Part shown: piece by piece, positions 20,973 through 28,849 of the stretch
Position numbering within the stretch: position 1 is the first letter of the stretch
How the letters are laid out: every line of letters starts with the position of its first letter
Source: Capsaspora owczarzaki ATCC 30864
Lineage: Eukaryota; Opisthokonta; Filasterea
Length of the DNA stretch: 64,000 nt
NCBI RefSeq assembly: GCF_000151315.2
Contig: NW_011887294.1
Location: 2,004,460 to 2,068,459, forward strand
Reading direction: 5' to 3'
Position numbers and translations under genes: made by a program
Notes under the pieces: model-generated
What the model saw: only the letters and a program-made list of their open reading frames with translations
Database searches by the model: none
What the model was told of the DNA's origin: nothing

Positions 20973-23278
20973 ATGGCGCTGCCGACCAAGCTCCAAGTCG
21001 ATCGAAGCCTCATCAATCCAAAGTTTGATGGCTACAAACTGGCGCCATTGAGCGCATCTTCATCCAGCCAACCGAGCACTCATAGCACGAGTAGTAGCGC
21101 GATGGGCGGTGGTGCGACAGTGAGCGGCATTGCGCTCCCGCCAAGCAGCCTCCGTCCATGTAAGGCTAGATGCAAGAAGCGCTCGATCCGCTCAATCTTC
21201 CAACAGCCACGCACTCACTGAATGAATCTCGTAATGACTCTGGTGCTTGTTTGCTACTTTTAGTGCTTGTCCAGCCGAACGCAAGTCGCCACTTTGCGCT
21301 CAACTACTTGTCGCAGTTTGTCGCGCACAACCACCTCGTGGCGGATCCGTTCGATGCGGGCCAGGACGGCGAACTCGCCTATTACATTGACCAGCAGTGG
21401 CAAGTCGTGCGCGTACTCGCTCCCCACGCGGTCGAGCAAGACCAGCCGTGCGCTGTGGTGGAGCATGTCGCTGCTTCGATTCAAGCGCCCGTTTCAGCGG
21501 CTCCTGCGCACGATCCATTCAATCCGACAATCTCCTTCCCAAGCGCACATCTTGCAGTGATTGCAGACGGCCTCGATCGGCTCCTGCTGTTCGACCGCAC
21601 CTCAAAGCCCTGGCGACAGCTCGTGTCGACGTCGGTCGTCGTTCGAGGCGTTGACGGCAAAACGTCGCCCCTCGCCCCGCTTGTGGTCCGATCGACTGTC
21701 ATGGATGCAAAGCAATCCAGTACAGTCGTGTGCTTGGTACAGACAACAGAAGAACGGCCTGCGACCAAGCCAGGCGCGGACACTTGCCTCGTCGGATTGC
21801 ACGTTGTGCGTGTTTCTGTGCCACCCGTCGACAGCGCTCCCGCAGTCAACCCTTCAGCTACTGTAGCATTCTCGTTGATGACACCGGCGTCCCCGTTCTA
21901 TGCTCATTTAGATCCGGAACAAGGCAGTCTGGTTGTTGTGACCGACCGAACTTTGACTTCCACCCATCATCCTGCCGCCACCGCCGCCGCAACCCAAGCC
22001 AGTTCCGCATCGGATCCAAAAGCAAATACCACACACGCAAGCGCTGCTACTCCAGCAACCCCTTCCGCTCCATTCACTTGGTCACAGCACGTGAGCGAAG
22101 TTTCAATCCAAATTCCCGTTCACCGAAGCGTTACCAGCAAGCAAGTGTCGTGCAAGTTTGAAAGCGAACATCTCAAAGTGACGGTACGCGGAGCTGCAAC
22201 GACAGAGGTTGTGCCGGTCGACTTTGGCGGCGCTCTCTTTGATGAGGTCGATCCGGATGAATGCACCTGGAGCATTCAACGCCCGGCCAACGGTGGCCAA
22301 CCCTTCTTGGAGGTTATCTTGGTCAAGGTTGCGGAAACACGCATGACTTGGACCCGTCTGTTCACAGATGGACCCTTCAACCATGTTGAGGCAACGTTGA
22401 GCGATGCCCAAAAGGTCGCCATCGCCGCCAGCCTCGCCAAGTACACGACCGACGAATCCGAGCAAGATATTCGAGCCGCGTCCAAGCGAGGACTTGGCTG
22501 GTCGGCGACGCCGACTTCCCAGCCAACCGCAGCGCCAGCATCGGCGTCAGCACCATCGCAGAGCAAAATTGAAGAACTGATCGACGATGAGGATGATGGA
22601 CAGCCAATCGTTGGTTCCGATGCTGCTGCTGCTGCTGCTTCCCATCCACAACAGCCGACAGACATTCCTGAAGATTATGCAGCAGGGGCCTTTGCCCACA
22701 CGGTCGAGGAGTGCGACTTTGACGACGTGGACAGCAGCAATCTGGCTCTGAGCGTGTTTGACTCGCATGGCCACTGCACCAGTACTCTGGCGCTCGACAG
22801 CGCACAGTTCTTGTTCAGCACTGCTGCCTCGCGCTTGCCATCTGGCTCTGTTGCGTTGCCCGCCTTTGCTGTGCGGTACAATGTCGACGGAGTCGTGTTT
22901 TCCGTCCACCCGTCCCAATCTCAGCGGTCTATCGCGCATCACTCGGCCACCTTCAACGCGTTTGGCTATGTGCAAGCGTCCAAGCGCGAGAAGAAATTCC
23001 TAGGAGGCGCGGCCGACGGGCGGTTTGCATTCCTGTGCGAGGCCAGTCGGCATCTGTTTGTGTTTGAGCAGCCAGGCACAACTGGGTCTGCCACAAGCAG
23101 CAGCTCTTCTGCCAAGCAAACGCTGCCAGCGTTCCCCTTAGCTCCAAGCCAAGCCACGACCGCTCGCCAATTCCTTGCACCGATCGAATCTGGCGCAACC
23201 GTTCTTGGTGCCGCTGTCGTCAACCGAGCCATTCTTGCCCTGACGGAAGACTACCTGTCTGTTACTCGTGTGCCATGA
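20973..23278 (+). CDS. NUDCD1: NudC domain-containing protein 1
   Basis: Two exons, 20973-21159 and 21264-23278 (phase 1), 733 aa. A CS (p23/HSP20-like) domain lies at about residues 330-430, beginning FTWSQHVSEVSIQIPV and including the DECTWSI strand typical of NudC proteins; NudC CS domains act as Hsp90 co-chaperones. The N-terminal half is a beta-propeller-like region (SLINPKFDGYKL, matching the NUDCD1 start). The C-terminal third carries the signature VEECDFDD and [18 protein letters not shown], which human NUDCD1 has as [20 protein letters not shown]. Low-complexity Ala/Thr/Ser inserts account for extra length over the human protein (583 aa). Partners in animals include COPI and DHX15; nothing here tests that. 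Confidence 0.93.
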
Positions 23279-24255: not shown

Positions 24256-26593
24256 ATGACAAAGCGGCGCATCGACGACAGCGAGGATTCGGACGCAAGC
24301 TTTGGTCAGGACGACAATGATCGGAGCAAGGACGCGACGCCGCAGCGAGCGAGCAAGCGACCGCGCGCTCAGAGCAAGGCGTTGGTCGAGAGCGACAGCG
24401 ACAGTGAACCAGAACGCAGTCGCAGTCGCAGTCGGAAGGGAGCGAGCTTGGACGACGACGAGGACGATGAGGACGATGAGTTTGGCGGGAAATCCGCTTC
24501 AAGCCGATTTGGCGGGAAATCCACAGCACCAAGCCTGAAGCCAGCGACCAGTTCGGCCAGCTCGACTGGCTCGCGTCCCAAGGCGGCTGGACTGGGCCTG
24601 TCATCCGTGTTTGACTTTGATGACGAGATCGGGAACGACGACCGCGCTGCCAAGCCGAAAGCCCGAGCGACGCCCACGAAGACGCCGACCAAGACGCCAA
24701 GCAAGCCCACGACGCCGACGCCGGCCGCCAAAGTGGAACGAACGCCGTCGCAGATCAACAAGCCAGGTAATGGTTTGTGTTTCTTTGGTTTAAGCGCACG
24801 CCAGAGTGTTGCTCACTGATCGGTGGGTTTGGAACAGGATTGTCGCCTTCTGCTCAGGCGCTTCGACTCAGCTCCGCGACTGCTGCCACGCTCCAACGCA
24901 AGCCAACGCGAGAGGTTGATGCCGAAAAGGAAGACGCCACCCCGCGCATGGATTCGCCCGCCAAACCAGTCTCATCCCGGCGTTTGGTCACCGAGACGAC
25001 GACGCCAGCAAGCTTAGCCTCGGTTGTTGTTCTGGACGACTCGGAAGCCGATTCCGTTGCACCCATGAACATCGTTGCACCCAAGACAAAGTCTATTGCT
25101 GCCGCCACGCCGAGTAAAACGGTTGCCGCTCTGACAAAGACCGTGTCTTTGGAGCCGGAAGCGCCGAAATCTGCAACAAAACCAGCGATCGCTGCTCCAG
25201 CTCTCGCCCATGCATCCTCTGAAACCGCAACGCCAAAGCAACCTGCAGCGAAAAAGACACCCATTGTCCCCATTCTCGCCCCGTCGTCTGACGAAACCCG
25301 CGAGCAGCAGACGGAGTCCAAACGGTAGGGCTATCCGAGTTCTTGCTCGCGAGCTGACACTGACTCTCACTTGTTGATTTTGGTTGGATCAGTCTGCGTG
25401 AGCGCGCTGCATGGCTGAAGATGTTTTCATCACGAAAGACCAATCTGGATGGCATCGAGGTGCCAAAACTGCCAGCTGGTAAACGCGAGTTTGATGATGC
25501 TGCTTGCGTCTACACCATCTTGTTGTACTTCTCACTTTTTGTTGTATTTTGATTTGCGCCAGTCTTGCGGGACTGCCATGGAGCAGATATTGTTCGAAAA
25601 GGCGGAGCTCGCAAGGAACGCTACCTCATCTCATTTCCAGGACAACTTCAGGGCTTGACCTCGAGTGGCACCCCCACAATCGGGTCGCTGGCCAAGCTGA
25701 ACTCGCCCAATCCAGTCATGTATCTCGACTTTCCTGAGGTAAAGGTTGTTGATGTCAGAGGTGTTTTTTTTTTTTTTTCTCTTTTCTAACCATGCAGGAT
25801 CGCTCACTTGCATCAATTGCTCAAACAGGGTCGCCTCAAACTCTTTGGCACATTGGTTTTCACCAATAGCAAGTTTGTAGCGCTGCAAGCCAAGAAGCAA
25901 GGTTGGTTTTTTTTTTGTTGTTTTCGGTTTGGATTTAGTTGCGAAATGTCGCGCCTGGACCCCCTCACTTGGTACACACTTTTCGTTGACCTCCGCGTTT
26001 TCCCCTCAGCTATTCAATGCGAGGACGTTTTCGACAAGGTTGTCACGTTTTCCGAGGCCACTTGGATTGGCCATCTCCAGGACAATCCGAACGAAGACCC
26101 ATTGCCCCTTCCCGCATCGCTGATTGGCTTGGCCTCAGCAGCTCCGCCGTCGGTCAGTGCATCCCGGAGCCACAGCGCCTCTGCTGGAGTAGACATTCGT
26201 GACTTTTTCCGCGGTACTTCGGCCGCCCAGCCAACAGGCATGCCGGATTTGAGTGGCGACACGCCTCCAAGCAGTCAGACATTGGGTCGACGAGCCGTTC
26301 GCCGCCCACGCTACAATCCCGACTTTGGCGATGACAGCGACGCGAATGGCAGCGATCGTGACGATGGCGAAGCAAGCGCGGACGACGAGTTTGTCGCCTC
26401 GCAATCGTCCACCCGCCCGCGGCGGAGCGCGGCAGCTCGTGCAGCTGTTGTCGAGTCATCCGATGAAAGCGACAATGCCGAAGATGATAATCCCGACAAT
26501 GAGCCTGAGCACACTGCAAATCCGGAGGAGGAAGACGAGAGCGAGAGCGACGCTGCGCCGATGGATGTTGATGAAGATGAGGATGATGATTAA
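24256..26593 (+). CDS. RHL1: RHL1 homologue, topoisomerase VI-associated DNA-binding protein
   Basis: Six exons: 24256-24766, 24838-25324, 25393-25478, 25563-25738, 25829-25901, 26010-26593; all phases agree, 638 aa. The conserved core (about residues 360-490) matches plant ROOT HAIRLESS 1: RKGGARKERYLISFPGQL (plant RKGGQRKNRFLFSFPGLL), NPVMYLDFPEGRLKLFGTLV (plant NPVLYLDFPQGRMKLFGTIV) and CEDVFDKVVTFSEATWIG. In plants RHL1 joins BIN4 and the Spo11-like/TopoVIB subunits in topoisomerase VI, needed for endoreduplication. The N-terminal ~350 residues are disordered, S/T/P/K-rich and acidic, with a KTPTKTPSKPTTPTP repeat. The C-terminus is strongly acidic with a basic RRAVRRPR patch, fitting a nuclear DNA-binding protein. 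Function here is inferred. Animals are not known to me to have this gene. Confidence 0.88.
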
Positions 26594-26712: not shown

Positions 26713-28849
26713 ATGCTTCGTGGAGCAACAGTGCTGAGTGGGCGAGCCGCCGCTGCCGCCGTGATGGCGACCGTCACCACAACGCGATCTAAATCCTCGC
26801 TGATCATGTCGCGCATGCTCAACCAGGAGATGAAGCAACTGGCGGAGCAGCGCAAGCACGAAGAGCGCGCGCGGCTGAACGAGCTCAAGCAAGCCAAAAC
26901 GACCGAGATGCAGATGCTGATTGCCGAGATGCAGCGACCGTCCCCGCGAGCTCAGAGTGCGCAGCAGAGCAATGCTGCAAGTGCGTTGTCAGCAGCCGCG
27001 GGTGCGAGTGCGCCGCCGGCAACGTCGAGCTCAGGCTCGGTCTTGGCGCAGCAACACGAGGCCGAGACGAAGGTTGACATGTCATCCAGCACTGCCAACG
27101 CCAACCGGAGCGCATCGTCGGATGGTGCAGGCGATGATGTAACGAGCACCGAGAGTGCTGCTGCTGGTGCTGCTGCGAGTCGCGGTCGAGGCCGACGGAC
27201 ACGAGCTCGACTGGCTGCCATGAAACAGTCAGACGAGACGGCGGATCACACGGCCGATGCCCCTGCCGGCCACCGCAGGCCATCCCTGGGGATTGGCGCA
27301 GACCAGTACTTGAAGCAGCTGCAAGAGAAGGAGCCGCCGCAGGCGCGCGGTCGCAAGGGTGGACGTGTTGATGTCAACTTGGACCAGAATCTGAGCGGCG
27401 ATGGCGAGCGACGCTTGGATCTGAGCAACCCAGCTGACTTGAAAGAGTCCATTCGTCGTCGCATTGCACAGTGGCAAAAGCCGGGAAACGCCTACAAGCC
27501 CACAGAGCCAGATTTGCAGTTTGCCAACCGATTGTTCCAGCTTCCGTCGCAAATCGTTACTTCCACCTCTGATATTGGGCTCCATTCTCCTCCCGAAAAG
27601 TATCCCGAGGTAGGTTGGGGGGTTTTTCTTCTTTTTTTTTTGGTTGCAAGTGCTCTTTGCGCACACAGAAGGTTGCCTCACGCTCACTCACCTGAAATTG
27701 TCAGTTTGCCGTCATTGGCCGCAGTAATGTTGGCAAGAGCTCGCTCATCAATGCCCTTGTTCATTCGACCACTCTCGTTCGAACCTCTGCCACCCCTGTA
27801 CGTGTTGGGTGTTGGTTTTGTTCGAGAACTTTTTTCACTTGACCGGGTTTGTGGCTCATCATGCTTCGTTTCTTGTCTTTTCATTCGCTCAGGGCCACAC
27901 CAAAACACTCAACTTTTTCAGCATTGGAAGGCGAATCGGCGTTGTTGATTGCCCTGGATATGGCTATCGCGCACAAGAGGAATGGATGGACAACCTGGGT
28001 ACCATGCTTTCAACGCGCTCGACCATTCGCCAGGTTTTGCTGTTGATCGACCCGATGCATGGCTTGAAGACGACCGATCTTGAGGTGATGCAGCTGCTGG
28101 AGGAGCTCGAAAAGCCATTCCAAATTGTGTTTACCAAGAGCGATCGCATGGATGGCAAGCTGGACATGGCCGTGATGCGAGCCACCGAGATTATTGCTAG
28201 ACAAACCACGCACTGCATGCCATTCCCTTTCCCGGTCAGCGTGCTGCAAAACAAGGGCCTGGGTGTGTTGCGCCACTCGATTCTTCGAGCGCTTGACGTC
28301 AACAAGGACAATTGGCGACCGCAGCTCGAGCGTCCTTCCGATCTTCGCGCTGCGGCCAGAGCAGAGGCAGCGCAGCCCAGTTCATCGGACGATGATGCCC
28401 CTCCAGCAACGGTGGCGAAAGCCCCGCCTTCAGGTCCGCTGTCCGGCAAGGCGGCGCTGAAAGCCGAAATTGTGCGCTTGGCTCAAGAGCTCAAGGAGAT
28501 TGAGCAGATGGCTGCGGAATTGCCCGAGACGCAGCTCATGTCACTCCGAGAAGAGAAGGACCAGCAGCGACGCGAGCTCAAAGCGGCTCAGCTCGGCCAG
28601 AATGAGGACGAAGACGACGAGGATGAGGATGGAGACGACGACGATGATGACGACGATGATGACAGCGACGATGACAGCGACGACGACGATGATGATGATG
28701 ATATGCAAGCGTCAGAGCTCGCGGACGAAATGCGCGCGTTTGACGAATGGCGCGAGCAAACCCAACAAAGCCGGAACCAATCGTGGGCGCGCATCATGAA
28801 CGAGCCAGCTGCGAAATCGCCCTCTGGAGGTCGTGGTCGACGACGATAG
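26713..28849 (+). CDS. GTPBP8: EngB/YihA-type GTPase (GTPBP8-like), mitochondrial
   Basis: Exons 26713-27609, 27705-27797, 27893-28849, all phase 0; 648 aa. G motifs: G1 [11 protein letters not shown]2 GHTKTL, G3 DCPGYGY, G4 TKSD, G5 SVLQNKG, in the order and spacing of the EngB family, which acts in large-ribosomal-subunit assembly; animal GTPBP8 is mitochondrial. The first residues ([27 protein letters not shown]) look like a presequence, which decided the ATG. The GTPase domain is only ~210 residues: it is preceded by ~275 residues of low-complexity, charged sequence and followed by a coiled coil and an Asp/Glu run (about residues 585-610), both unusual for the family. Convergent with MEMO1, 127 bp apart. 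Confidence 0.92.

Follow-up and report, generated by a model that had tools for sequence, protein, structure and literature searches.

What does a homologue of plant RHL1 do in Capsaspora owczarzaki, a unicellular opisthokont of the Filasterea? Topoisomerase VI, of which RHL1 is an accessory subunit in plants, is usually associated with archaea and plants. A sequence-only reading of a 64-kb stretch of the Capsaspora genome (hereafter the window; G+C content 54.0%) pointed to a gene whose core closely follows Arabidopsis RHL1. Two options were proposed for its presence: a complex resembling topoisomerase VI might have been retained in the lineage, or the role of RHL1 might be an older and separate one, in chromatin. 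Here, the gene model is described, the rest of the genome is searched for the other parts of the enzyme, and the explanations are weighed against each other.

Part of the answer can be found in the literature. Filasterea, Ichthyosporea, and Choanoflagellatea have all kept topoisomerase VI, as reported by Allen & Maxwell (2024, PMC11302465), who cite Brinkmeier et al. 2022. Since its retention in three holozoan phyla has already been published, the finding of RHL1 in an opisthokont is less surprising than it first appears. According to the same survey, RHL1, BIN4, and topoisomerase VI co-occur among eukaryotes, and RHL1 is found only in eukaryotes with topoisomerase VI; the one named eukaryote that bears the enzyme without RHL1 has a topoisomerase VI of bacterial origin (PMC11302465). 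Archaeal topoisomerase VI is reported to lack both RHL1 and BIN4, and plant RHL1 binds DNA in vitro (PMC11302465). The eukaryotic enzyme described there concerns the same lineage and the same enzyme as the present work. Its main text does not mention Capsaspora (0 occurrences), and its figure on RHL1 and BIN4 distribution covers the SAR supergroup, whereas gene models are given here. In the literature searched, the statement found on topoisomerase VI was this group-level one, and no species-level statement for Capsaspora was found. Retention of the enzyme in the holozoan group is thus already known; the gene models, the affinity of TOP6A to Asgard sequences, and a possible link to E2F can help in the choice of experiments.

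The RHL1 gene and its core

The coordinates proposed from the sequence proved exact: the gene runs on the forward strand from an ATG at 24256 to a TAA that ends at 26593. In the splice model, six exons are joined into one open frame of 638 amino acids. The introns had been described as native in style, and all five have GT-AG borders. The motifs quoted in the same reading (RKGGARKERYLISFPG, NPVMYLDFPEGRLKLFGT, and FSEATWIG) are all present in the protein. The parts of the gene are as follows:

24256..24766, forward strand: exon 1, with the start codon and an acidic, Ser/Lys-rich tail (splice model)
24838..25324, forward strand: exon 2, a low-complexity linker (splice model)
25393..25478, forward strand: exon 3 (splice model)
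25563..25738, forward strand: exon 4, first half of the core, RKGGARKERYLISFPG...NPVMYLDFPE (splice model and alignment)
25829..25901, forward strand: exon 5, GRLKLFGTLVFTNSKFVALQAKKQ (splice model and alignment)
26010..26593, forward strand: exon 6, last part of the core with FSEATWIG, followed by an acidic C-terminal tail and the stop codon (splice model and alignment)
25577..26122, forward strand, introns included: the core, amino acids 367-482 in exons 4-6 (alignment to Arabidopsis RHL1)

Outside the core, the tails of the protein are low-complexity and acidic. The neighbours on both sides are ordinary genes on the same strand, namely a CS-domain protein upstream (21170-23278) and, downstream, a GTPase of the 50S ribosome-binding type (MMR_HSR1; approximately 26720-28849).

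The proposed resemblance to the plant protein was borne out by alignment. In a one-sequence BLASTP search, 52 of 118 positions were identical between the core and Arabidopsis RHL1 (44%, 115 bits, E 2e-34); the plant sequence used was not a database copy. The alignment score of 270 lies far outside the distribution obtained from 1000 shuffles (mean 28.0, sd 4.5, maximum 50). The pattern HGxDIxRK...SFPG...NPVxYLxFPxGRxKLFGT...FSExxWIG was found in the core, and 52 of 125 columns were invariant, again with a plant row that was no database copy. At the level of sequence, the gene in the window is therefore confirmed as a real homologue of plant RHL1, with a similarity well above what chance would give if the plant sequence used is correct.

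Other resources returned little for this protein. The 638-residue sequence had no Pfam match at E<=10, and a PDB search with the core gave nothing significant (best E 1.4). For exons 4-6, modelled with AlphaFold2 from a single sequence that included the translated introns (one stop read as Gln), the mean pLDDT was 33.4. A search of the host genome with the core (E<=1) returned no locus besides the exons in the window. The cores of RHL1 and BIN4 look alike by eye, and the idea that the two are distant paralogues was rejected when profile-profile comparison of two-row alignments gave a probability of 0.2% over 7 aligned columns.

The Capsaspora and Arabidopsis proteins share a co-linear core, and the genomic company of plant RHL1, that is, TOP6A, TOP6B, and a BIN4-like gene, is also present here. 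The Capsaspora protein differs in having a 366-residue low-complexity region ahead of the core. Its host is a unicellular opisthokont rather than a plant.

Other parts of topoisomerase VI in the same genome

The searches covered the host genome, 27.46 Mb in 29 contigs, at the level of single exons. Two GAPDH qPCR primers published for Capsaspora owczarzaki (PMC9170242) match this genome exactly and lie in opposite orientation within one GAPDH gene; a 90-base coYki arm from the same table gave no match. Genes for TOP6A, TOP6B, a BIN4-like protein, and a separate SPO11 were found on four contigs other than that of RHL1, all of them with introns. The four putative subunits of the enzyme are thus spread over contigs C3 (RHL1), C4 (TOP6A), C17 (TOP6B), and C2 (BIN4), with at least 3 introns in each gene. 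The extra Spo11 paralogue, the TopoVIB with its GHKL and transducer domains, and the BIN4 for which the sequence-only reading recommended a search are therefore all accounted for, the last with a plant probe that was no database copy. The first of the two options, retention of a topoisomerase VI-like complex, is supported.

The Pfam model TP6A_N (PF04406) matched two loci, on C4 and C9, and Toprim (PF21180) was found at both. The C4 model comprises 12 exons and 585 amino acids, with the motifs KRDLFYTD, VEKDAAF, and VDSDPYG, which we take to be the catalytic tyrosine, the Toprim glutamate, and the DxD motif, respectively. In the C9 model, whose N-terminus is incomplete, the corresponding motifs are KRDLFYLD, VEKEAVF, and VDCDPHG. 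The C4 protein is closer to the archaeal subunit (164.7 bits to S. shibatae Top6A vs 49.2 to yeast Spo11), and the C9 protein is nearer to balance (90.5 bits to archaeal Top6A vs 72.5 to yeast Spo11), which would be expected for a SPO11. For this reason, the C4 gene most likely encodes the A subunit of topoisomerase VI and the C9 gene the meiotic SPO11, as judged from these scores.

The transducer model (Topo-VIb_trans) matched a single locus, on C17. The TOP6B model built there has 15 exons, the first of which runs further upstream. It carries FVENSLDAAE, DNGCGM, GRFGLGAKMA, and RGTEIS, which are presumably the GHKL boxes. In the PDB search, the protein was aligned to S. shibatae TopVIB with an E of 4.5e-79; in Pfam, the transducer scored 164.5 bits, HATPase_c_3 35.6 bits (above its cut-off), and HATPase_c 22.8 bits (below its cut-off). 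This reading of the catalytic motifs is supported by the PDB alignments of the TOP6A, SPO11, and TOP6B proteins. The main domains of TOP6A and TOP6B can be aligned with those of archaeal topoisomerase VI (Saccharolobus shibatae 2ZBK and Methanosarcina mazei 2Q2E). The spliced models of TOP6A and TOP6B contain one GC-AG intron each, and that of TOP6B includes an 11-base exon.

The BIN4-like locus on C2 was recognized with E 4e-16 and 39% identity to a plant BIN4 core, with a probe that was not a database copy. Its model has 236 amino acids; the N-terminus is uncertain, and an upstream exon may be missing.

Prokaryotic relatives and the origin of the enzyme

Patterns derived from the TOP6A/SPO11 pair were used to scan genome_contigs, a collection of 84,980 bacterial and archaeal species. 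Such patterns favour close relatives, so the scan is no census. Eleven of its 68 pattern stretches encode TOP6A relatives, which come from 8 genomes; all are archaeal and none are bacterial, and their best segments are 43-53% identical. Ten of the eleven bear names that we take to be those of Asgard archaea. The title of the remaining one (L072) says no more than "archaeon", but its genome belongs to the same phylum search as the Asgard set.

TP6A_N is widespread in that set, where it was found in 212 of 227 Asgard genomes. The searches for RHL1 among prokaryotes relied on a pair of short patterns and a profile of two rows, which limits their sensitivity, and they gave no sign of a prokaryotic RHL1: 11 of the 227 Asgard genomes had a match at E<=0.1 (best 0.006), fewer than the approximately 23 expected by chance, and none of the 93 pattern stretches in genome_contigs were confirmed. 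Nor were any of the 70 pattern stretches in viral_contigs confirmed as RHL1. The presence of TP6A_N in most Asgard genomes, with RHL1 only at chance level, fits a core enzyme of archaeal origin to which RHL1 would have been added by eukaryotes.

A tree was built from 40 sequences, namely TOP6A, SPO11, and 38 Asgard Top6A proteins. The Asgard part began with 49 rows, from which 11 identical repeats were removed; these rows came from the scan loci and 30 loci of the TP6A_N search rather than from all 212 matching genomes. The deep nodes are weak, and the placement of SPO11 has 51% support.

Some of the Asgard loci have features of their own. An N-terminal ubiquitin-like domain was seen in the Top6A proteins of Sifarchaeum and Borrarchaeum (L065 and L066). 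Four Asgard Top6A proteins were scanned with Pfam: the Rad60-SLD and ubiquitin models passed their cut-offs in two of them, the ubiquitin-like match was below the cut-off in a Heimdallarchaeota protein (L071), and there was none in L072. In Borrarchaeum weybense (L067 and L068) and Sifarchaeum (L065 and L069), two Top6A paralogues share a contig, separated by approximately 11 kb. One member of each pair is located directly behind a Top6B-like reading frame, recognized by eye. No such frame was found within roughly 1.5 kb on each side of the ubiquitin-like paralogue.

Explanations for RHL1 in Capsaspora

Judging from the genes assembled above, RHL1 is very probably a subunit of a conventional eukaryotic topoisomerase VI holoenzyme, composed of TOP6A, TOP6B, RHL1, and BIN4 and most likely inherited vertically. 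The strongest competitor is the second option named at the outset, in which RHL1 would act mainly apart from topoisomerase VI and bind chromatin or DNA in a general way, its co-presence with the topoisomerase genes being incidental. The small core, the long acidic tails, and the DNA binding of the plant protein in vitro (PMC11302465) would suit such a role. However, the TOP6A, TOP6B, and BIN4-like partners are encoded in the same genome, so a separate role is not needed. In addition, the survey has RHL1 only where topoisomerase VI occurs, and the sole named case without RHL1 involves a bacterial-derived enzyme (PMC11302465). An incidental association is thus improbable.

Even less credit can be given to lateral acquisition of the set from an alga or a prokaryote. 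The patchy occurrence of topoisomerase VI among opisthokonts (PMC11302465) might suggest such an event, but the four genes lie on four different contigs and are all interrupted by introns, and the prokaryotic TOP6A relatives in the scan are all archaeal, at the identities given above. Moreover, the enzyme is reported from three holozoan phyla (PMC11302465). It is hardly conceivable that the core is a member of some broad, unrelated family and resembles RHL1 by convergence or chance. The plant sequence compared was no database copy and the protein matches no Pfam family, which leaves this explanation some room; against it stand a score of 270 with a shuffle maximum of 50, the co-linearity across 118 columns, and the fact that neither a Pfam family nor a significant PDB chain claims the core.

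For the holoenzyme, a mode of action can be proposed because the catalytic parts of TOP6A and TOP6B are intact in sequence. Most likely, it would carry out ATP-dependent strand passage, in which RHL1 and BIN4 would assist by binding DNA, as their plant counterparts do. TOP6B would bind and hydrolyze ATP, and TOP6A would open one duplex so that another could pass through, by which DNA would be unlinked or relaxed. In plants, RHL1 and BIN4 bind DNA in vitro, and here they may anchor the enzyme to chromatin or modulate it. Two of the four genes carry E2F-type sites, which raises the possibility that the complex is active in S phase, beside topoisomerase II.

E2F-type words in the first exons

The word TTTGGCGGGAAA, which we take to be a consensus of the E2F type, has 212 copies in the genome, and the reversed word has 2; this roughly hundredfold excess is an enrichment based on the genome-wide count. 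Two exact copies are found in the first exon of RHL1:

24481..24492, forward strand: TTTGGCGGGAAA in RHL1 exon 1, exact E2F-type word, in-frame FGGK
24508..24519, forward strand: second copy in RHL1 exon 1, exact word, in-frame FGGK

Another copy in the window is located at 1614-1625. Exon 1 of TOP6A has one exact TTTGGCGGGAAA, and exon 1 of TOP6B has one with a single mismatch. No exact word was found at BIN4 or TOP6B within the stretches examined; BIN4 has only looser sites, both intronic, and three looser E2F-type sites are present at the SPO11 locus. Over the four genes and 500 bases upstream of each, 3 exact words were observed, in two genes, against an expectation of approximately 0.099, which is the sum of four expectations from the genome-wide density, with the length of TOP6B approximated.

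The surroundings of the word give a mixed picture. In an MCM control with 14 matches at eight loci, stretches of about 1.5 kb on either side of the domain were inspected; an exact word was present at one locus (C7, approximately 1.2 kb before the MCM match), and the other seven had none. Twenty long ORFs beside TTTGGCGGGAAA sites, one each from 20 of 30 loci, were also compared with Pfam, and half of them had a match at E<=0.001. Three of these ten belong to replication or repair, namely a DNA polymerase of family B, a member of the DNA polymerase epsilon N-terminal family, and a BRCT protein, and the other seven are apparently unrelated to replication. In the cell cycle of Capsaspora, replication genes fall in a G1/S cluster, and Rb and E2F7 are periodic, according to a published study (PMC7098662); topoisomerase is not mentioned in its main text.

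The exact sites in exon 1 of RHL1 and TOP6A suggest, tentatively, control in S phase. Since the motif was noticed after the sequences had been read, the E2F link is suggestive only. The words can also be read at another level. Six GCGGGAAA words lie in exon 1 of RHL1, TOP6A, and TOP6B, all on the coding strand and in one frame, where they read (G/R)GK. The peptides are FGGKS (three times), LRGKS, IGGKV, and KRGKS, within acidic or basic tails; in RHL1, they span 24481-24525. Because all of these words share strand and frame, they may reflect a motif at the level of the protein, instead of an E2F site or along with it. Both readings could be combined in a speculative and rather doubtful proposal, in which holozoan topoisomerase VI with RHL1 and BIN4 would be a conserved S-phase enzyme under E2F control, exerted through the exon 1 sites of RHL1 and TOP6A, together with the one-mismatch site of TOP6B. 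In this proposal, the same word would also encode a peptide of the FGGK type that three subunits share in their acidic tails, and it may therefore double as a regulatory site and a subunit motif.

Significance

If this proposal is true, the use of topoisomerase VI in plant endoreduplication would be derived from an older role in replication that predates the split of the animal and plant lineages. Capsaspora is a genetically tractable relative of animals (gene targeting is published for strain ATCC 30864, PMC9170242) with what appears to be the whole set, including RHL1 and BIN4, so the role of the enzyme outside plants can be asked in it. The same system bears on why animals and fungi could lose topoisomerase VI.
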